DNA of 64,000 nucleotides from Bradyrhizobium sp. AUGA SZCCT0176 (lineage in GTDB: Bacteria > Pseudomonadota > Alphaproteobacteria > Rhizobiales > Xanthobacteraceae). Below the pieces are notes generated by a model that worked only from the letters and a program-made list of their open reading frames with translations, was not told the DNA's origin and searched no databases. The stretch is taken from NCBI RefSeq assembly GCF_018130145.1, contig NZ_JAFCMB010000006.1, positions 186,001 to 250,000 of the forward strand, in the 5' to 3' direction. Position numbers and translations under genes: made by a program. Each line of letters starts with the position of its first letter. The stretch's first letter is position 1. Below, in pieces: positions 4,904-38,369 of this stretch.

Positions 4904-6505
4904 ATGCTCATCAAGCTTTCCCGTACCTTTGCGCTTGCGGCCGCTTTGCTGTCGTACCAACCGGCGATGGCCGAAACTGCGCTGCGCATCGCGATGACGG
5001 CGTCCGATATCCCGACCGCAACGGGAATGCCAAATAATGGCTTCGAAGGCATGCGCTTTATGGGGTATCCGATCTTTGAAGGGCTGGTGCTGTGGGATTT
5101 GACCAGAACCGACCGGTTGGCGACCCTGCGGCCCGGGCTCGCGGAGAAATGGGAGCAGGACCCAGCCGATAACAAGACGTGGATTTTCCATCTGCGCCGC
5201 GGCGTGAAATTCCACGACGGCACCGATTTCAATGCGGATGCCGTGATCTGGAACCTTGATCGCTATTTCAACAATAGCAGCCCACAATTTGAGCCGCCAA
5301 GCTCGGCAATTTCGCGCGCCCGCGTCCCTATCATGGGAAGCTACAAGAAGGTCGATGACGACACCGTCGCCATCACCACGACCAAGCCAGCGTCGTACTT
5401 TCCCTATATGGCGGTGTACCTTCTGTTCACGTCGCCTACGTCGTTCGAGAAGGCCGGCCGGGAGTGGGCCAAGGTCGCGACGTTGCCCGCTGCAGGCACC
5501 GGTCCATTCCGCATCACCAAGATCGTGCCACGGCAGGAAGCCAATCTCGCCCGGTGGGATAAATACTGGGACCCCAGCCGGATGGCGAAGGTCGACAACG
5601 TCGTGCTGATGCCGATCCCCGAAGCGAATTCGCGGCTGGCTGCGTTGCGCGCCGGCCAGGTCGACTGGATCGAAGTGCCGCCGCCCGATGGTCTCGCCTC
5701 ACTGAAATCGGCGGGCTTCACCATCACGACCGGCTCATATCCGCATGTCTGGCCCTGGTTCTACAACATCGGCGCGACCAACAGCCCTTTCAAGGACGTC
5801 AGGGTTCGCCAGGCTCTAAACTATTGCATCGATCGTGAAGGGCTGGTGTCGCTTCTCAATGGGACCGCGGAGCCGTCGGTAGGCTGGCTCAAGGCCAGCG
5901 ATCCCGATTTCGGAAGCCCGGTCAACCGCTACAAGTTCGACGCGGCCAAAGGCAAAGCCCTGCTTGCCGAAGCGGGATACTCACCGGCGAAACCGTTATC
6001 GTTCAAGGCGCTGATCTCGAATTCCGGTTCGGGCCAAATGTTGCCTTTGCCGATGAACGAATTCCTGCAGCAGAACCTCAAAGAAAATTGCGGGGTGAAT
6101 GTGGAAGTCGGCGTGATCGAATGGCAGGTTCTGTTGACGGCGGCCCGCGCCACACCCGATCATGCAAGCCTGCAAGGGGCGATGGTGCTCAACATCAGCT
6201 CGCCATCGTCAGATGCCGGTGTCATGGCGCGTTACTTTGCGGCGGCCAATTTTTCGCCGAACGGATTCAATTTTGAGCAATGGAAGGACGATGATTTCGA
6301 GGATGCGCTCAAGACGATTTCCGAGGCGACTGATCCGAAAGCCATCTCGGCCGCCTATCGCAAGGCGCACGAACGCATCGTCGATAATCCTCCCTGGCTT
6401 TTCATCGTCCACGATCTTAACCCGCGTGCGATGAGCCCGAAGGTCAAGGGTTTCGTCTCGCCGCAGTCGTGGTTCGTCGATCTCACCCTGGTCAATTTGC
6501 AGTAG
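4904..6505 (+). CDS. ABC transporter substrate-binding protein, oligopeptide family (SBP_bac_5)
   Basis: A 533-residue exported receptor of the DppA/OppA type. It has a signal peptide of about 23 residues ending 'PAMAE', then 'WIFHLRRGVKFHDGTDFNAD', the classic SBP_bac_5 core signature, and 'VRQALNYCIDREGLV', another family hallmark. Such proteins deliver peptides, sugars or opines to an ABC importer. No permease or ATPase gene is adjacent, so its partner lies elsewhere. GGAGG six bases before the ATG supports the start. The gene is divergent from the nitroreductase gene. Confidence 0.93.
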   Translation: MLIKLSRTFALAAALLSYQPAMAETALRIAMTASDIPTATGMPNNGFEGMRFMGYPIFEGLVLWDLTRTDRLATLRPGLAEKWEQDPADNKTWIFHLRRGVKFHDGTDFNADAVIWNLDRYFNNSSPQFEPPSSAISRARVPIMGSYKKVDDDTVAITTTKPASYFPYMAVYLLFTSPTSFEKAGREWAKVATLPAAGTGPFRITKIVPRQEANLARWDKYWDPSRMAKVDNVVLMPIPEANSRLAALRAGQVDWIEVPPPDGLASLKSAGFTITTGSYPHVWPWFYNIGATNSPFKDVRVRQALNYCIDREGLVSLLNGTAEPSVGWLKASDPDFGSPVNRYKFDAAKGKALLAEAGYSPAKPLSFKALISNSGSGQMLPLPMNEFLQQNLKENCGVNVEVGVIEWQVLLTAARATPDHASLQGAMVLNISSPSSDAGVMARYFAAANFSPNGFNFEQWKDDDFEDALKTISEATDPKAISAAYRKAHERIVDNPPWLFIVHDLNPRAMSPKVKGFVSPQSWFVDLTLVNLQ

Positions 6506-18085: not shown

Positions 18086-18103
18086 TGACACGCGACCGCT
18101 ACA

Positions 18104-18126
18104 CTCCCCGGGCGAATTCCGGGGAG
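18104..18126 (+). promoter_or_regulatory. Hairpin covering the ribosome binding site of the first serine hydrolase
   Basis: CTCCCCGG (18104-18111) pairs perfectly with CCGGGGAG (18119-18126) across the loop GCGAATT. The second arm is part of GGGGAGGGG, the ribosome binding site for the ATG at 18134. The hairpin could therefore hide the site and lower translation. Confidence 0.5.
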
Positions 18127-18133
18127 GGGTCCA

Positions 18134-19417
18134 ATGAATTCACGTCAAGTGCTGTGCGCGTTCGTTGGTGGCGCGCTGATGCTGGGGGCGCCGCCGCTCG
18201 CCCGCGCTCAAGGCACCTTCGACATGCCTGCGGGAGCACGTTTCAGTGAAGCAAAACTCGCCAAGATCAGCGAGTTCTTCGCGAACGAGGTCGCAACCGG
18301 CAAGATCGCCGGCGCGAATGTGCTGATCCAGCAGCGCGGCAAGCCGGTCTATCATCAGACCTTCGGCGTGCAGGACGTGGTCTCCAAGACGCCGATATCA
18401 GACAAGACCATCTTCCGCCTGTCGTCGCTGACCAAAGCGATCACATCAGTCGTGGCGATGCAGCTGATCCAGGACGGCAAGATCAAGCTCGACGATCCCG
18501 TCTCGAAATACATTCCGTCCTTCGCAAACATGAAGGTCGGGGTGGAGAAAAAGGCCGAGGACGGCAACAGGACGCTCGAACTGGTGCCGATGACCCGGCC
18601 CATTACCATTCTCGACCTGTTGCGTCACACCTCCGGCATCACCTATGGCTTCTATGGCGACAGTCTGGTGCGCAAGGCTTACAAGGAAGCCAACATCTAT
18701 GCGGGCGAATTCGACCTTGCCGAGTTCGCCGAACGGATCGCCAAGCTGCCGCTGCACAACCAGCCGGGCGCGCTCTGGCAATACGGCCATTCCACCGACA
18801 TCCTGGGACGGATCATGGAGATCGTGTCCGGAAAATCATTGCTCGAGATCGAGAAGGAAAAGCTGCTCGATCCGCTCGGCATGACCGACACCGGCTTCTT
18901 CGTCACCGAACCGGAGAGGTTGCAACGGCTCGCCCAGCCGGTGCCGAACGACAGTGATTTCCGTGTCGGCCGCCAGTACCGGACCGAGGTTCGCCAGAAA
19001 TGGGAATCCGCCAGCGGCGGCATGGTCTCGACCATGTCGGACTTTTCGCGCTTTGCGCAAATGCTGCTCAACGGCGGGACGTTCGAGGGCAAGACCTATC
19101 TCAGCCCGAAGACGTTCGAATTGATGGCATCGGACCATACCGGCAAGAGCTCCGGCGTCGAGCGGGACTATTTCTATTTTCCCGGTGACGGCTTCGGCAT
19201 GGGGCTTGGGTTTGCCGTGCGCACCGATCCCGGCAACGCCAAGCCTCCGCCGCCGGGATCGCTGGGCGAATTGAAATGGGACGGCGCCTCGGGTTGCTAC
19301 ATGGTGATCGACCGCAAGCAGGAAATGCTTTTCGTATTGCTGGAACAGACTCCCACCGAACGGCAGCGCGTTCAGCGCACCCTCAAGCAGTTGGTTTATG
19401 AAGCGATGGAGAATTGA
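18134..19417 (+). CDS. Exported serine hydrolase, class C beta-lactamase fold (copy 1)
   Basis: A 427-residue protein with a signal peptide ending about residue 25 ('PPLARAQ'). The active-site Ser-x-x-Lys is in 'FRLSSLTKAITSVVAMQLI', and the second-motif tyrosine is in 'WQYGHSTDILGRIMEIV' (Y-G-H instead of the Y-x-N of true beta-lactamases), so an esterase, amidase or peptidase role is more likely than penicillin hydrolysis. The third motif may be 'LKWDGASG'. The gene next to it encodes a close relative in tandem, and their ends overlap. Confidence 0.92.
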   Translation: MNSRQVLCAFVGGALMLGAPPLARAQGTFDMPAGARFSEAKLAKISEFFANEVATGKIAGANVLIQQRGKPVYHQTFGVQDVVSKTPISDKTIFRLSSLTKAITSVVAMQLIQDGKIKLDDPVSKYIPSFANMKVGVEKKAEDGNRTLELVPMTRPITILDLLRHTSGITYGFYGDSLVRKAYKEANIYAGEFDLAEFAERIAKLPLHNQPGALWQYGHSTDILGRIMEIVSGKSLLEIEKEKLLDPLGMTDTGFFVTEPERLQRLAQPVPNDSDFRVGRQYRTEVRQKWESASGGMVSTMSDFSRFAQMLLNGGTFEGKTYLSPKTFELMASDHTGKSSGVERDYFYFPGDGFGMGLGFAVRTDPGNAKPPPPGSLGELKWDGASGCYMVIDRKQEMLFVLLEQTPTERQRVQRTLKQLVYEAMEN

Positions 19418-28397: not shown

Positions 28398-28868
28398 CTA
28401 GTTGCCGAACATCACCAGGCGCGAAGTGGCGTCACTACCAAAAGCCATGACCGGGGCTTCTTCGTGCTCTCGTGGTTCCAGTCGCTGTTTCGCCCGGGCA
28501 GCCTCGCGCCTGGATTTGCGTTCGGCGTAGCGTTTGCGGCGTTCACGCACTTCGGCTTCAGCCTTCTTCGCGTCTGGCTTCTCAATGCGTTTTTCCGGCT
28601 GCGTTGCCTGCACCGGCTCGGGTGCCGAGTCCACCACCGCAGCCTGTTGCGATGTCTGTTGGGGCGGCTGCGGCGGCTGGGCCGCCTCGGCCGTGGTAGG
28701 CAGGATGACCCTGACGGCGGACGGCAGTTCCGCGGTCGTACGTGCCTGGTAGCCGGAGCGTTCCTTGAGCGCCGAGTTAGCCATCAGGAGTCCGCTGCCA
28801 AAGCCAACTCCCAGGATGACAAAAGTAGTTCCCACCCCTGCGAAAAAAATGCGCGCGCTAGATGCCAT
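28398..28868 (-). CDS. Single-span membrane protein with charged helical tail
   Basis: A 156-residue protein. Residues about 5-30 form one membrane helix ('IFFAGVGTTFVILGVGFGSG'), followed by a Pro/Gln-rich linker ('AAQPPQPPQQTSQQAA') and a long Arg/Lys/Glu-rich helix ('KAEAEVRERRKRYAERKSRR'). The start at 28868 has GGAG eight bases upstream; an ATG at 28991 gives a longer protein with no better support. It is likely anchored in the inner membrane with the tail in the periplasm. Function unknown. Confidence 0.7.
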   Translation of the reverse strand: MASSARIFFAGVGTTFVILGVGFGSGLLMANSALKERSGYQARTTAELPSAVRVILPTTAEAAQPPQPPQQTSQQAAVVDSAPEPVQATQPEKRIEKPDAKKAEAEVRERRKRYAERKSRREAARAKQRLEPREHEEAPVMAFGSDATSRLVMFGN

Positions 28869-29171
28869 GACCGTGTCTCCAAGAATGCACGTCAACACCG
28901 TGATCTCGAGATAGGTTCCGAGCCGGGAAAAATAGGTAACCGGCGTTTCCTTTGCCTCCGCTATCCTTACCCGCTCGTAGTGCTTGTGCACGACTCGCGG
29001 CGCAATTCAGAACGTGGCTTCCCATGTTGAGATCAATGACTCTCGCTGTATACCAATCCTCTACTTCAATAGCGGAGAAGGCGTGCTTGAGGTTTGCGCC
29101 TCGTTCGAGCATGCTGATGCAGTGTCCGAAAAAGCTTGTCGTCGCGATGATGAGCAGCGCTGCCGAGCATT
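28869..29171. other. Gene-free spacer
   Basis: No convincing gene in these 300 bases on either strand. The only feature found nearby is the minus-strand terminator at 29172-29205. Confidence 0.4.
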
Positions 29172-29759: not shown

Positions 29760-30093
29760 AACGTTCCCATCACAAGCAGTCTGCCGCCCCAGGCGCTGAA
29801 TAGGCAGTCGATGATGAATGCACCTTGAACGGCCCAAGCCTCGCACCCCGTAAAAACACGGTGCCTCTCCTCATGCGAAGTCTTCACTGTGCCGCGAAGG
29901 TGAGTCGTGTTTGTGCGTGCGCGCACGCAGGAGAAGCGATGACTGGCTGATGCCGCTCTTGCCAAAAGCAGACTGCGCCCAACGCAAGGCTTGTTCCCCA
30001 GGGAACAGCGCGGCGCGGCAGACGGGGGTATTGTGCGGCTCACCGATGAAACGGAGCGATGATCGCCCCGGTCGGACACGAAGGAGCAAACCG
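29760..30093. other. Upstream region of the double-glycine peptide gene
   Basis: No gene was found. It has a perfect 16-bp palindrome TGCGTGCGCGCACGCA (29914-29929) and the inverted repeat TGTTCCC-CA-GGGAACA (29992-30007), the second lying 87 bases before the ATG at 30094. Both could be regulatory sites for that gene. Confidence 0.4.
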
Positions 30094-30285
30094 ATGACCA
30101 GCCATACCGGACTTCTGAACGACACCGAGCTTGCGATCGCTTCAGGTGGCGTCACTTCCCTGATCGGCACCAGCACCATTGCGCATCCGCACATTCCCCG
30201 GAATCACGACCTGCTGACGCCGCAGCAGATCGCAAAGCTGCTTTCGTTCAACGGCGGCTTCAGCCCCCCGATCCCCCGCAGCTGA
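30094..30285 (+). CDS. Small peptide with double-glycine-type leader
   Basis: A 63-residue peptide. Residues 8-19 read 'LNDTELAIASGG', close to the bacteriocin-type leader consensus LSxxELxxIxGG with Glu at -8, Leu at -7 and Gly-Gly at -2/-1. Cleavage would release a 44-residue product 'VTSLIGTSTIAHPHI...', with no cysteine and a proline-rich end. AAGGAG seven bases before the ATG is an excellent ribosome binding site, and a clean hairpin terminator follows 30 bases after the stop. No C39-peptidase transporter or modification enzyme is adjacent; the exporter 5 kb away lacks the peptidase domain. Function unknown: a secreted peptide or bacteriocin-like product is inference. Confidence 0.7.
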   Translation: MTSHTGLLNDTELAIASGGVTSLIGTSTIAHPHIPRNHDLLTPQQIAKLLSFNGGFSPPIPRS

Positions 30286-30315
30286 TTTCAGCAAGCCGAG
30301 AGCTGAATTGCCTGG

Positions 30316-30353
30316 TCTCGCCTCCCCTGGCCAAGGAGGCGAGATCTTTCCTT
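30316..30353 (+). terminator. Terminator of the double-glycine peptide gene
   Basis: TCTCGCCTCC pairs perfectly with GGAGGCGAGA across a nine-base loop and is followed by TCTTTCCTT. It lies 30 bases after the stop of the 63-residue gene and marks it as a single-gene transcript. Confidence 0.75.
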
Positions 30354-33406: not shown

Positions 33407-33637
33407 TCAATCAGAAGCCAGAATGCGCGCGGTGCGATGAAATCGCATCGTGCCCGGCAGTGAAGTTGTGTGGAAAGAATTTCCTCCTGCAACTGTAGCG
33501 TCGTGGATATCCCTGAGATCTCTGAGCACCGATTGCTGAATCGGGCATCTCTCATGGACACGGCGCCACGCGATTATGATCGGTGGAAATTTGGAATCAG
33601 TGGGGTGGCCCAACAGCTTTTTGAATTCGGGGTTATT

Positions 33638-34405
33638 ATGGACCAAGTCGTCAACCACGCTGAACGGCTCAATGGATCGCCGCAAATGCCGGCCCTGGTG
33701 ATCATCGAGCCTCTCACGTTAACGCGTACCTGCATTCTAAGCATTCTCCGGCGGGAATTGCCGGGGTTCGAAATCGTCGAAATGGCGACCACGGACGGTC
33801 TGGATTTCGTGTCGGGACGAGATGTTTGCCTGGTGGCGCTGAGTACCGGGGACAAGTCCATCGCCGATCCATCCGTCGAGGACGATCTTGCTCTCCTCGT
33901 GGACTACTGCCCCAATGCCTCCATCGCGCTCTTGTCGAACCGTGACGACGAGGCCACGGCATTGGCCGCAATGCACAGGGGAGTACGGGGCTTCTTCCCG
34001 ACCTCGATCCCGGTCGAGGTCGCGGTTGCCGGCCTGCGTCTTGTTCTCGCCGGCGGGGTCTACAGACCACTTCCGATCATCGCGCAAAATGGGACGACAG
34101 CGCCGGAATTGCTCTCTGCTGCCGAGTTGCCGTCGGGGTACCTGGCCGCCGACGCTGCGAAAGACGTGGCAGAAAAACACCTGATCGATTTCACGCCTCG
34201 CGAGCAACACGTGCTTGCGGAACTGGAACTCGGTCTTCCGAACAAGCTGATTGCGGCTAAACTGAATCTTTCGGAAAACACCGTTAAAATGCATATTCAT
34301 CATATCATGCGGAAGTGTGCCGCTCGCAACCGCACTGAGGCGGTGCTCCGCTGGAGCGGCCGGCTGTCGGGCCATGAACGCGATACCAGCCCAGGCGCAT
34401 CTTGA
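33638..34405 (+). CDS. LuxR-type regulator with degenerate receiver domain
   Basis: A 255-residue protein. The C-terminal LuxR/NarL helix-turn-helix is clear: 'FTPREQHVLAELELGLPNKL' and 'LNLSENTVKMHIHHIMRKCA'. The N-terminal half has the length and pattern of a response-regulator receiver ('ALVIIEPLTLTRTCILSIL...'), but the acidic pair normally after the first strand and the phosphorylated aspartate ('VCLVALSTGD') are not evident, so it may respond to something other than phosphorylation. An ATG at 33554 would add 28 residues; the start at 33638 follows TCGGGG. The gene is convergent with the type I secretion genes, 13 bases from their end, and is a plausible regulator of them. Confidence 0.82.
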   Translation: MDQVVNHAERLNGSPQMPALVIIEPLTLTRTCILSILRRELPGFEIVEMATTDGLDFVSGRDVCLVALSTGDKSIADPSVEDDLALLVDYCPNASIALLSNRDDEATALAAMHRGVRGFFPTSIPVEVAVAGLRLVLAGGVYRPLPIIAQNGTTAPELLSAAELPSGYLAADAAKDVAEKHLIDFTPREQHVLAELELGLPNKLIAAKLNLSENTVKMHIHHIMRKCAARNRTEAVLRWSGRLSGHERDTSPGAS

Positions 34406-34418
34406 GGCAGATCGTAGC

Positions 34419-35840
34419 TCAATCTTCCTTGAACGCGCCGTTGAAGCTGTCGAGCAGGGGCCTCAGGGCGTAGAGTGCCACGGTGCTGCGCCCGGTTGTG
34501 ATGAACACCTGTGCCGGCATTCCGGGGATGATCCGGATGTCTTGCTCGGCGATCCGCGCATCCTGCACGCGAATTTTGGTTGCGTAGTAGGGCTGCTCGG
34601 TACGCTTGTCGACGAGGCGATCGGCGGATACGTGCGTCACTGTCCCACTGAGACGCGGTGCGCGGCGCTGATTGTAGGGCAGCAGGTGCACGTCGGCATT
34701 CAGTCCTGGATGAACCACATCGATGTCCTCGGGCCTGATGCGCGCGGTCACGATGAGGCGATCCTGCCGGGGCACCATATCCATAAGCGGGGCACCAGCC
34801 CCGATCACGCCGCCGGGGGTATGAATCCGCAGGTCGGTTACCACGCCGTCCTCGGGAGCCTTGACCTCGGTTCGCGACAGCTGGTCCTCGGCCGCCCGCA
34901 ATCGCTCGCGTAGCTGAAACATCTGATTTTGTGCCTCGCGCAGCGACTGCGCGATTTCGTTTTGCCGGTCGCTCTCGAGCTTGAGCAGCGTCGCCTGCGA
35001 TTCGCTAATGACCTGCTCGGCGCGCGAAATATGCGCGGCGATCTCGCCCCGCCGCCCCTGTATTTCAGCCACTTCCCGTTCGAGGTTCAGAAGGCGCGGC
35101 CGCCGTTCGAGCCCCTTGCTGACGAGGGTGGCCACCATGTCCAGTTCCTCGCGGGCGATTGCCGCCCGCTGCGCGACGGCGGTTTCCTGCGCCTTGAGGC
35201 CCAGGATTTCCTTGTCGACCTGGAGGCTTTTCTCCCGGACGACGGCGAGCTGAGACCGGAAGACCTGCCGGCGCGTTTCAAAGATGTTTCGCTGCGCGGT
35301 GAGGACATCTGCGGCCGATGAATTCTCTTTCCCCGCAGTCGCCATCCTGGCCGGAAACGACACATGCTCTTGCCCTTGCATCTCGGCCTGGAGCCTTGCT
35401 TCACGTGCCGTTGCGTCCCACAATTGGCCCTGAAGGCTCTGCACCTCGGCGCGGGCCCTGGTGTCGTCCAGCCAGATCAGCACCTGCCCGGCGCGCACCG
35501 CGTCGCCGTCGGCAACCAGAATCTCCCTGACGATGCCGCCCTCAAGGTGCTGAATCGTCTTCCGGCTCGATTCCGTTTCCACGACGCCGGAAGCGATCGC
35601 GGCACTCTCGAGTGGCGCAAAGCCCGACCAGATTCCCAGGCCCAGCACAAAGCAGACGACCAGCAGATTGCCTGCCCAGGTGAAGCCGCGGAGTGCGGAG
35701 CGAGGTGAAGCTGGCGTCGGGGCCGTCCACCATGCAAACTCCAGAGGCTCGATATCGTCGATCGCGGTAATCACGACCTTGGTTCGCCGCTCCGGGACGA
35801 GGGAAGACGAATGCGGCGGCTTGTCTGGAACGTCGGTCAC
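34419..35840 (-). CDS. HlyD/PrtE-type membrane fusion protein of a type I secretion system
   Basis: A 473-residue periplasmic adaptor that links the ABC exporter to an outer-membrane TolC-like channel. It has one N-terminal membrane helix ('NLLVVCFVLGLGIWSGFAPL'), then 'ESAAIASGVVETESSRKTIQ' and 'LEGGIVREILVADGDAVRAG' (lipoyl-like half), a long coiled coil (about residues 130-330) and 'APEDGVVTDLRIHTPGGVIG' closing the lipoyl domain, followed by a beta-barrel region. I place the start at the GTG at 35840, which overlaps the exporter's stop codon as GTGA, so the two are translationally coupled. No TolC gene is in the window. Confidence 0.92.
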   Translation of the reverse strand: MTDVPDKPPHSSSLVPERRTKVVITAIDDIEPLEFAWWTAPTPASPRSALRGFTWAGNLLVVCFVLGLGIWSGFAPLESAAIASGVVETESSRKTIQHLEGGIVREILVADGDAVRAGQVLIWLDDTRARAEVQSLQGQLWDATAREARLQAEMQGQEHVSFPARMATAGKENSSAADVLTAQRNIFETRRQVFRSQLAVVREKSLQVDKEILGLKAQETAVAQRAAIAREELDMVATLVSKGLERRPRLLNLEREVAEIQGRRGEIAAHISRAEQVISESQATLLKLESDRQNEIAQSLREAQNQMFQLRERLRAAEDQLSRTEVKAPEDGVVTDLRIHTPGGVIGAGAPLMDMVPRQDRLIVTARIRPEDIDVVHPGLNADVHLLPYNQRRAPRLSGTVTHVSADRLVDKRTEQPYYATKIRVQDARIAEQDIRIIPGMPAQVFITTGRSTVALYALRPLLDSFNGAFKED

Positions 35841-37618
35841 GGGACAACTCGCTGAGGTGACACGTTGGCGGCTGCGGGCGTACTCTCGGGCAACGTGACC
35901 TGTGATGCGACTTGCGGTCGGCTCAAATACCTCTCGAAAATCTCCTCGCTTTCGCCACATGCCATGACGGCGCCGCCCTGCATGATGGCAATTCTGTTCG
36001 TGGCCGCGAGAATACCCATTCGATGGGTGATGATGATCACCGTGATGTTGGCTTTCTTCAGCTGCTCGATGGCATCGAACAGCACGCGCTCGCCTACGTA
36101 ATCGAGGCTGGCGTTCGGCTCGTCGAGCACGACAAGGCGCGGGTCATCGAAGAAAGCCCGCGCAAGGCCGAGACGCTGGCGATACCCGCGCGAAAAAGCA
36201 CAGCCGCCGCCGGGAATGACGGTGTCATACCCCTGTGGCAGCCCCACGATGGTGTCATGGATTCCGGCGAGCTTCGCGGCTGCGATGACTTTCTGCGGAT
36301 CGCTATCATCCAGCCCTGCGATGACATCCGTTATCGTCTCCCCAAACAGGTTGATGTCCTGCGGCAGATATCCGAGGTGACGATCGCCCCCTCCCTCACG
36401 CAAGACCGATACGTCGACGTTGTCGAGCAGGACGCGCCCCTGAGTTGGCGTCGAGATTCCGGCAATGATCTGGCCGAGCATTGATTTGCCGGAGCCGGAC
36501 GGACCGATAATGCCAAGGCATTCACCAGGCGCGAGGCTGAACGAGACTTCCCTCAGCAGGAATCCGCCGGAGCCTGGCAGTGCCACGCCGACATTGTCGA
36601 CGACGAGACGGCACCGGTTCGACGCAATGCCCGCGCTCTCCGGGACAGCGGGGATGACGACAAGGACGTCCGTGAGCCGCCGATAGGCGCTCAAGGCCGT
36701 CGCGAAAGCTTTCCAGCCAGCAATGGCACCCTCGACGGGTGCGAGCGCGCGGCTGAACAGCAGTGTCGAGGCAAAGATAATGGCGGGGCTTCTGTTGTAG
36801 TCGAGCACCAGCCACGCGGCGGCTCCCATGATCAGGACCTGCGACAATGCGCGTGCCGGCTTTGCGACAAGCATGATGATCTCGTATCGCCGCTGGGCCT
36901 CGTCGTGCTCGCTTCGCGCGTCCTGCGCGGCCTGGCAGATCAGGCGCGCGGCGCGGTCGCGCATCCCCATGGCCTGGATCAATTGAACATTATCGACAGC
37001 CGTCGCGAACCGGCTATGGCTTCTGGCCCAGGCGGTTCCGGACCTGGCCTGCGCATCCTCGGTGAGGACATCGCCGACAAGAGCGAGGCCGAACAGGAAG
37101 AGCACGCTGCAGGCTCCTATCACTCCCAGCAAAGGATGTACGAGAAAAAGCACACTTAGAAACAAAGGTACCCAGAGCGCGTCGAACAGTATCGGGCATG
37201 CATTGGATTCGACGAACTGACGCAGAACAGTGAGATCCCGATACGCCTGCGATGCCTGCGCCGGGTTGCCGCGGTTGGCGCATTCGAGGCTGGCCGAGAG
37301 CACGGAGGGACGAAGGCGATCTTCGAGCCATGCCCCGAGCCGCCCCAACACGGCGCGGCGCAGCGCGTCAAGTACGCCACCAACCACAACGGTGAGCGCG
37401 ACGATCAGGGTGAGCATCAGAAGCGTGTGGCCGCTCCGGCTCGACAAAACCCGATCATAGATCTGAAGCAGGTAGATGGACGGAGCGAAGAGCAGCAAAT
37501 TGTAGCTGCAACTGTACGCGAACACGATGCCAAGCGTGCTGGCGCAGGCCCAGAGCGCCGCCTGCAGCCTTGTCTGTGGCTGTGCTGCGAGGTGTAATCG
37601 GAGGGGCGGCATCAGCAT
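35837..37618 (-). CDS. PrtD-type ABC exporter of a type I secretion system
   Basis: About 593 residues: a six-helix membrane domain (residues about 20-300) and an ATPase domain. Walker A is 'GIIGPSGSGKSMLGQIIAGI', Walker B 'RLVVLDEPNASLD', and the switch histidine is in 'VIIITHRMG'. There is no N-terminal C39 peptidase domain, as in PrtD/HasD exporters. The ABC signature is unusual: 'AFSRGYRQRLGLARAF' stands where LSGGQRQR is expected. The start may be the ATG at 37618, 37612 or 37687; none has a strong ribosome site. It lies directly after the two repeat-protein genes and before the adaptor gene, with which it overlaps. Confidence 0.93.
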   Translation of the reverse strand: MLMPPLRLHLAAQPQTRLQAALWACASTLGIVFAYSCSYNLLLFAPSIYLLQIYDRVLSSRSGHTLLMLTLIVALTVVVGGVLDALRRAVLGRLGAWLEDRLRPSVLSASLECANRGNPAQASQAYRDLTVLRQFVESNACPILFDALWVPLFLSVLFLVHPLLGVIGACSVLFLFGLALVGDVLTEDAQARSGTAWARSHSRFATAVDNVQLIQAMGMRDRAARLICQAAQDARSEHDEAQRRYEIIMLVAKPARALSQVLIMGAAAWLVLDYNRSPAIIFASTLLFSRALAPVEGAIAGWKAFATALSAYRRLTDVLVVIPAVPESAGIASNRCRLVVDNVGVALPGSGGFLLREVSFSLAPGECLGIIGPSGSGKSMLGQIIAGISTPTQGRVLLDNVDVSVLREGGGDRHLGYLPQDINLFGETITDVIAGLDDSDPQKVIAAAKLAGIHDTIVGLPQGYDTVIPGGGCAFSRGYRQRLGLARAFFDDPRLVVLDEPNASLDYVGERVLFDAIEQLKKANITVIIITHRMGILAATNRIAIMQGGAVMACGESEEIFERYLSRPQVASQVTLPESTPAAANVSPQRVVP

Positions 37619-37706
37619 TGTCGTCACCGCCAGAGCCCTGAGGATTCGACCTTCTCGTTCCACCGTCAGTCCGGCGTGGCGCCGCATTGATCGGCGGCGA
37701 GTCGTG

Positions 37707-37730
37707 GACCGGCGGCCACTGCCGCCGGTC
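37707..37730 (-). promoter_or_regulatory. Hairpin between substrate and exporter genes
   Basis: GACCGGCGGC and GCCGCCGGTC are perfect ten-base inverted repeats separated by CACT. The hairpin lies in the 135-base gap between the 155-residue protein gene and the exporter gene and has no T-run. It could protect the upstream mRNA end or partly stop transcription, giving more substrate than exporter. Confidence 0.55.
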
Positions 37731-37753
37731 TTGCCAGTCGGACAAGCTGCCGA

Positions 37754-38221
37754 TCAGAAGGTATCGAATTCAAAGTGGACGTCTCCACCCAGCGCGATGT
37801 TGCCGTTTCCACCGTCGCCGCCGATACCAGCCACCACTTCCTGATGCATGTCCGCCTTCAGCGAGTTTGACTGCTGCGCCGTCGTGTTGGCGTATACCTT
37901 GGAGGTATTATGGCCGCTGTCGGAGTCCTGGTTTCCGTTCGACGTGGCCTTTCCTCCCTCGGCCTTCGCAAACCACGAAGCCTTTCCGTTTGCGCCCCCG
38001 GCATCCCATCCCGCCTTTTGATTGACGTGATCGCCGGTTTTCACGTCCACGCTGGCACCGCTCGCCTTGTTGTATGGATCGAAGCTGATGCTCGGTTGGT
38101 TGACGATTTTTCCCGAGAAGCTACCGTCGCCGCCATTTCCGGCGTTGTTGCCCCCGGTGTTGATCGATTTGAACTCGATGGAGTCGGAAACGTTGATTAA
38201 TCCCTTTGCCTTGGCCATCAT
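37754..38221 (-). CDS. Single-module Gly/Asn-rich protein, candidate type I secretion substrate
   Basis: A 155-residue protein with no signal peptide. Residues 24-37 'GNNAGNGGDGSFSG' and 132-148 'GIGGDGGNGNIALGGDV' match the two halves of the module in the adjacent 489-residue protein, and a Gln-x-Asn segment ('AQQSNSLKAD') lies between. It is polar, with few hydrophobic residues. It ends 'HFEFDTF', a short acidic-hydrophobic tail like those of PrtD-type type I substrates. GGAGG before the ATG pair at 38221/38218 gives the start. The exporter genes follow on the same strand. I do not recognise a family; the secretion role is inferred from context. Confidence 0.75.
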   Translation of the reverse strand: MMAKAKGLINVSDSIEFKSINTGGNNAGNGGDGSFSGKIVNQPSISFDPYNKASGASVDVKTGDHVNQKAGWDAGGANGKASWFAKAEGGKATSNGNQDSDSGHNTSKVYANTTAQQSNSLKADMHQEVVAGIGGDGGNGNIALGGDVHFEFDTF

Positions 38222-38369
38222 GTCAGCCTCCGTCCTGTGTTTAATTTCACGCACCATCCGTCCGGATCAGGATAGCGGATGTGTCAACAAGTCTGATCCC
38301 CACTTGCATGAGCCGGATAGATGGCAAATGGAGTGCCATCCTGTTCGGTAGGCGTTACACACGAAAGGA

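Follow-up and report, generated by a model that had tools for sequence, protein, structure and literature searches.

The systems closest to the locus considered here have been described in part in rhizobia and in part among double-glycine peptides. In Sinorhizobium meliloti, CHASE2 cyclases respond to a plant signal, act through the regulator Clr and limit infection (PMC13001267, in the portion available), and the excerpted texts of PMC5498481 and PMC10127613 give HGTYHCNNNNGRWACA as the Clr consensus operator. For double-glycine leaders, the accessible part of PMC6363468 gives Leu(-12)-X3-Glu(-8)-Leu(-7) as the C39 recognition sequence. The present analysis concerns a stretch of 64,000 nucleotides (nt) from Bradyrhizobium sp. 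AUGA SZCCT0176 (contig NZ_JAFCMB010000006.1, positions 186,001 to 250,000), hereafter the window, and in particular a 63-residue double-glycine precursor encoded at 30094-30285, whose leader fits this sequence. We propose, at a probability of about 0.72, that it belongs to a set of scattered double-glycine peptides which are controlled by a cyclic-nucleotide regulator and exported by a common NHLM transporter. The Clr-type promoter which ties the gene to this set is, in our view, a new observation; no description of such a regulon was found in the open-licence literature, as far as the available portions of those texts extend.

A conserved double-glycine precursor gene

An earlier note, made from the sequence alone, had described 30094-30285 as a 63-codon gene with an AAGGAG ribosome site, a bacteriocin-type leader, a 44-residue core free of Cys and containing His, Pro and Ile, and a perfect 10-bp hairpin downstream. 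Each of these features was recovered (Table 1). The open reading frame (ORF) reads MTSHTGLLNDTELAIASGG, the cut point and then VTSLIG..., and its leader residues, numbered back from the second Gly, are L-12, E-8, L-7, A-4, G-2 and G-1, which adds the L-12 of the published rule to the pattern already noted. The predicted core is basic (computed isoelectric point 10.8), has an unmodified mass of about 4730 Da and holds 0 Cys, 3 His, 6 Pro and 5 Ile, and the predicted structure of the peptide is of low confidence (mean pLDDT 60.8, pTM 0.24). The hairpin arms, TCTCGCCTCC and GGAGGCGAGA, form the perfect 10-bp stem, which folding lengthens to 12 pairs with one G-U; the 81-nt stretch containing it has a folding z of -2.0, and the T-run that follows is weak (TCTTTCC). 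A consensus terminator scan, which takes loops of 3-8 nt, did not list this hairpin, whose loop is 9 nt.

Under a strict scan for a Shine-Dalgarno sequence, ATG and double-glycine leader, this was the sole ORF in the window, and 40 random windows drawn from a first-order Markov model yielded none. An in-frame upstream start, ATG 30046, was rejected: its counterpart in the 71% ortholog described below lies 49 nt upstream of the start, one more than the 48 nt of the window, and is thus out of frame, making 30094 the better choice.

Of 265 Bradyrhizobium genomes, 5 carry a full-length ortholog, the source genome counted among them, with identities of 95% each in G012, G196 and G197 and of 71% in G183; a contig scan named three of the carriers as Bradyrhizobium sp. 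SZCCT0180, SZCCT0158 and SZCCT0428. These five full-length matches (E<=2.8e-23), together with one partial copy, were kept out of 94 genus genomes matching at E<=1, the remainder beginning at E 0.024 and being taken as chance. No homologs were found in plasmids or, outside Bradyrhizobium, in 397 genomes of the order, where an even draw that left three known carriers unsampled returned 2 Bradyrhizobium genomes only. The partial copy, a leaderless part of the core at 5034-5148 of G012 contig C166, was set aside as decayed. A boxed proline-rich double-glycine peptide follows it at a distance of about 0.6 kb, and a homolog of window 28398-28991 is found 1.5 kb further along.

Conservation of the leader in relatives, which the earlier note had proposed looking for, extends to the four further genomes: L-12, E-8, L-7, S-3 and the Gly-Gly pair are unchanged in all five orthologs, and the leader of the most distant, RLNTTELDTVSGG in G183, is canonical and nearer the rule than the window's own. 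Between the window and G183, changes by codon position number 8/13/20, such that 20 of 41 fall at third positions, with no frameshift and a dN/dS of 0.36 (dS 0.51, dN 0.18). Homology with G183 is limited to 29982-30352, from promoter to hairpin, and holds one ORF; the neighbours differ, the genes flanking the window peptide sitting on other contigs in G183. Judging from this comparison, the peptide gene behaves as a one-gene unit. No linked immunity gene was found in the conserved unit, to which that search was confined. Conservation, codon pattern and scan controls led us to reject a chance or artefactual origin, and we regard the ORF as a real gene, and its leader call as right, with both points confirmed.

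A promoter common to scattered peptides

The palindrome upstream of the gene is the window's sole match to the Clr consensus or to TGTGA-N6-TCAC, and TGTTCCC(CA/GG)GGGAACA is common to the five orthologs, about 102 nt 5' of the start. Searching the genus with TGTTNCCNNGGGAACAGCG gave 29 matches, spread over 8 of 265 genomes, against 1 for the reversed control, and these represent 28 distinct boxes. A double-glycine ORF with a Shine-Dalgarno sequence follows 70-130 nt downstream of 20 of the 28, as compared with 0/28 on the other side and 24/16000 at random places. Column conservation over the 24 boxes with a double-glycine or RTX-like product downstream marks a -10-like element (A at box+38 in 100%, T at +39 in 96%, T at +42 in 96%) at positions which were not part of the search pattern.

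The family model TIGR01847 offers a second approach to the same set. It gives 39 double-glycine leader matches in the five carriers, and the loci of 20 of these were examined for boxes, allowing at most 1 mismatch in 8 per box. In all 20, a box of the CRP type (GTGA-N6-TCAC) or of the Clr type lies 80-125 nt 5' of the ATG; the controls gave 316/8000 for random places and 5/90 for ordinary ORFs. Random places in both tests were drawn from 8 loci holding some such peptides, and the control counts are raised because of this. Fifteen further TIGR01847 hits, mostly in other genomes, had a box within 130 nt in 12 cases, the exceptions being in G151, G251 and G256; the latter two are the only genomes with double-glycine hits that are without NHLM.

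Several boxed loci depart from the simple arrangement. At four of them (L101, L078, L099 and L094, in G000, G196, G197 and G012, respectively) a Clr-type box is followed after 95 nt by the start of an RTX-like repeat protein, so that a type I secreted protein may belong to the regulon as well. Loci L086 in G000 and L081 in G012 are alike in box, 5'-untranslated region (5'-UTR) and first codons and continue as a 107-aa ORF and a double-glycine peptide, respectively, as if, on comparison of the two, the coding part had been swapped. At L055 and L058, CRP-type and Clr-type boxes stand in tandem 5' of one double-glycine peptide, which suggests two CRP-family inputs.

A 27-nt element in the 5'-UTR is conserved even more than the ORF. 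Its folding scores are low (z -0.64 for the window copy; means of -1.27 over 18 UTRs and -1.38 over 12), Rfam gave no match, and an RNA element is not claimed here, the sequence being conserved and the folding support weak. Most boxed genes have a hairpin-like element between the -10 and the Shine-Dalgarno sequence, with its loop near ATGAT/AATGGT and changes that appear compensatory by eye, the z-scores being weak. Contig C14 of G196 holds two 2-mismatch matches to the 27-nt element, tied to no known peptide.

A Clr-like regulator and an NHLM exporter

Genes for a CHASE2-type cyclase and a CRP-family protein adjoin each other, the exporter genes described below being about 8 kb away; the CRP-family gene occupies 18092-18790 of locus L044. 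The best PDB match of the CRP-family protein is Clr itself (7pza, E 2.4e-44), and the two have GASRPK(V/I)N in common in the recognition region, where two other CRP paralogs of the genome have RES. A natural division, judged by these motifs, would be for the RPK-type regulator to read GTTnC boxes and for the RES type to read GTGA boxes. Close homologs of the regulator (87-100%) occur in G000, G012, G183, G196, G197 and G249, which are the six genomes with at least 3 box matches, and are absent from 6 other genomes tested. At E<=1e-50 the regulator was found in 5 of 184 genus genomes, all of that same group, and in G000, G196 and G249 a boxed double-glycine peptide is encoded at 1-2.4 kb from its gene.

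Four C39 stretches were found in the source genome. A 743-aa protein above the TIGR03796 cut-off (1058 bits) contains the strongest of them and is flanked by TIGR03794 and TIGR03797 partners, and with all three components over their cut-offs the NHLM system is complete. Its C39 domain has LahT (6mpz, E 9.5e-48) as best PDB match, Cys27, His101 and Asp117 of LahT aligning with Cys, His and Asp. Two other C39-like hits, L045 and L046, are HlyB-type by NCBIfam, and no catalytic Cys was noticed in their N-termini on inspection by eye. The NHLM ABC1 component was found at E<=1e-200 in 69 of the 265 genus genomes, all five peptide carriers among them; genomes with double-glycine hits also have NHLM in 13/15 cases versus 56/250 elsewhere (Fisher 7e-7, kinship being ignored). 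Between the exporter and a cyclic-nucleotide-monophosphate-binding patatin gene lies a further peptide gene, whose leader, LLNDEALSIVSGG, matches the window peptide in 9 of 13 residues. The corresponding leader in G196 and G012, LLNDKELSIVSGG, matches in 10 of 13, and with G197 and G194 this peptide is present in five genomes in total (leader type LLND(E/K)..SIV.GG). Because the exporter-side leaders match to this extent, the exporter can be said to adjoin a peptide with a window-type leader.

The earlier note had seen no C39 exporter adjacent to the gene, had remarked that the exporter nearby was without that domain, and had pointed to the rest of the genome. All of this holds: the nearby exporter is PrtD-like with no C39 match, the same genome encodes the NHLM type, and the note's overall interpretation is supported, both relatives of the gene and a C39 exporter having been found. 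The PrtD-like exporter belongs to a separate type I secretion locus at window 33470-38257, comprising a LuxR-type regulator, HlyD, the exporter and a 167-aa Gly/Asn-rich protein, which is absent from the site in G196.

Table 1. Coordinates of features annotated in the window.
Feature	Position	Strand	Basis
Palindrome TGTTCCCCAGGGAACA, 16 bp, putative Clr-type (CRP/FNR family) operator	29992..30007	+	Consensus fit; half-sites kept in 5/5 orthologs
-10-like element TATTGT	30029..30034	+	21 nt past palindrome; column conservation over 24 boxes
5'-UTR element with hairpin potential	30043..30075	+	Near-identical in 71% ortholog; folding signal weak
Shine-Dalgarno AAGGAG	30081..30086	+	7 nt 5' of ATG; AAGGAG in G183, ACGGAG in three 95% orthologs
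Double-glycine precursor peptide, 63 aa	30094..30285	+	ORF list, orthologs, dN/dS
Leader MTSHTGLLNDTELAIASGG, 19 aa, predicted cut after Gly-Gly	30094..30150	+	L-12, E-8, L-7, GG; rule as excerpted from PMC6363468
Predicted core VTSLIGTSTIAHPHIPRNHDLLTPQQIAKLLSFNGGFSPPIPRS, 44 aa	30151..30282	+	Weakly predicted helix, precursor residues 43-52
Terminator-like hairpin, 12 pairs, loop of 9	30314..30346	+	Folding; CTCGCCTCCC/GGGAGGCGAG-type stem also in G183 ortholog
PrtD-like type I exporter without C39 domain, judged outside the system	35837..37687	-	Profile search; comparison with G196

Discussion

The arrangement we propose would begin with the CHASE2-type cyclase encoded beside the regulator gene, which presumably makes the cyclic nucleotide bound by the Clr-like regulator. 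This CRP-family protein would bind the palindrome at 29992-30007 and activate transcription from a promoter of class-II-like layout (box, 21 nt, -10), giving a monocistronic transcript. The translated precursor would be recognised via L-12, E-8 and L-7, the NHLM transporter would cut it after Gly-Gly with its C39 domain, and the 44-residue core would be exported, most likely to act extracellularly, the target being either other bacteria or a host. A wider scheme, in which a plant or environmental trigger acts through the CHASE2 cyclase and the Clr-like regulator on scattered, fast-evolving double-glycine peptides and the RTX-like protein, all cut and released by one NHLM transporter, we regard as rather doubtful. 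By analogy, the plant-signal control of S. meliloti might carry over to this Bradyrhizobium group, which is conjecture.

A number of observations weigh against a common regulon and exporter. At the locus itself, position -4 of the leader is Ala, where Val, Leu or Ile is usual, and the peptide matched no family at E<=1 in Pfam and NCBIfam, TIGR01847 (bacteriocin_sig) and PF10439 (Bacteriocin_IIc) included. The peptide gene is unlinked to the NHLM exporter, which lies on another contig here and, in G196 and G197, on the same contig at a distance of 83-100 kb, and no Clr-type box was found 5' of the exporter operon. Eight of the 28 boxes have no double-glycine peptide: the RTX-like protein follows four of them, ORFs of 107 aa and 93 aa follow one each, and the last two have neither; G075 and G030 have one box each and no such peptide. 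The 20 positive boxes amount, by eye, to about 7 peptide families in 6 related genomes and are non-independent, with relatedness uncorrected, and the double-glycine rule was drawn up with the first hits already known, although it was applied alike to the controls. The genomes in which boxes and regulator are found together form a single small group of relatives. Finally, the work is computational throughout: it shows the gene, its conservation, the fit to the leader rule, the common promoter, the exporter and the alignment of its triad, and that regulator and boxes occur together, whereas binding by this regulator, control by a cyclic nucleotide, cleavage, export and any activity are inferred.

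As to what the core does, we place a bacteriocin and a signal at equal odds, each of them possible without being favoured. A classical bacteriocin of the class II microcin type, using the same C39 export to kill related bacteria, would suit the double-glycine leader, the basic 44-residue core (above) and the many differing cores per genome, which resemble an arsenal; it is disfavoured because the unit common with G183 (29982-30352) is a single ORF with no immunity gene, and the bacteriocin families were unmatched. A secreted signal to siblings or to a plant, released in a given cyclic-nucleotide state, needs no immunity gene and accords with Clr-type control, with the CHASE2-cyclase adjoining the Clr-like gene here and, as far as the excerpts of PMC13001267 go, with the answer of S. 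meliloti CHASE2 cyclases and Clr to plant signals. However, no dedicated receptor was found beside the gene, conservation is confined to 5 genomes, and one fixed receptor is disfavoured because the core varies from peptide to peptide.

That the gene encodes a modified precursor of the NHLP/Nif11 type, a ribosomally synthesised peptide with tailoring enzymes acting in trans, seems improbable: the exporter is of the NHLM type, a companion of NHLP precursors in the available part of PMC2887384, but neither NHLP nor Nif11 leaders matched in the profile search, the core is without Cys, and no tailoring enzyme was recognised beside the gene, a genome-wide search not having been made. Export by the nearby PrtD/HlyD system, which lies some 4-5 kb from the peptide in the window and in G012, was rejected and strikes us as very unlikely indeed. 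That system has no C39 domain, the region 32.4-40.2 kb is absent at the G196 site where the peptide is retained, and it was not found in the 20 kb around the G197 peptide. We consider it just as far-fetched that the conserved block is untranslated, acting as a non-coding RNA or regulatory element; the 27-nt 5' element is indeed conserved beyond the ORF, but the excess of third-position changes against G183, the dN/dS and the intact frame point to translation, and most boxed genes carry a double-glycine ORF behind the promoter.

Annotation of short secreted peptides is difficult, the more so where they are scattered. With a rule for the promoter (Clr-type box, 21 nt, -10), such peptides can be found without reference to protein sequence and, if the wider scheme is true, the promoter alone would predict new members, even those which no family model recognises. 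The rule also connects cyclic-nucleotide control, which limits root infection in S. meliloti, with a peptide export system, and with regulator, operator, exporter and substrates all named the model is testable.

Comparison with known systems

The peptide resembles class II double-glycine bacteriocins and microcins in leader type and size and differs from them in having no immunity gene, no exporter beside the gene and no family match. The C39 domain has its best match among the LahT-type AMS/PCAT peptidases (6mpz), with the triad aligned and, as proposed here, one protease serving many cores; LahT, however, comes from a Lachnospiraceae system with long NHLP/Nif11 leaders, and the Bradyrhizobium domain is a predicted peptidase. 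With NHLM/NHLP systems the locus has all three components in common, but the substrates here have 19-aa leaders, which are neither NHLP nor Nif11, and are mostly scattered single genes. The Clr regulon of S. meliloti, governed by a CRP-like regulator responding to cAMP/cGMP, is approached in the operator, which fits the consensus in the available excerpts, in the regulator, with its best match in Clr and its common GASRPK(V/I)N, and in the CHASE2 cyclase alongside. It differs in that Clr targets, in those same portions of the literature, are described without double-glycine peptides, whereas here most boxes precede them and the regulator lies near an NHLM exporter.
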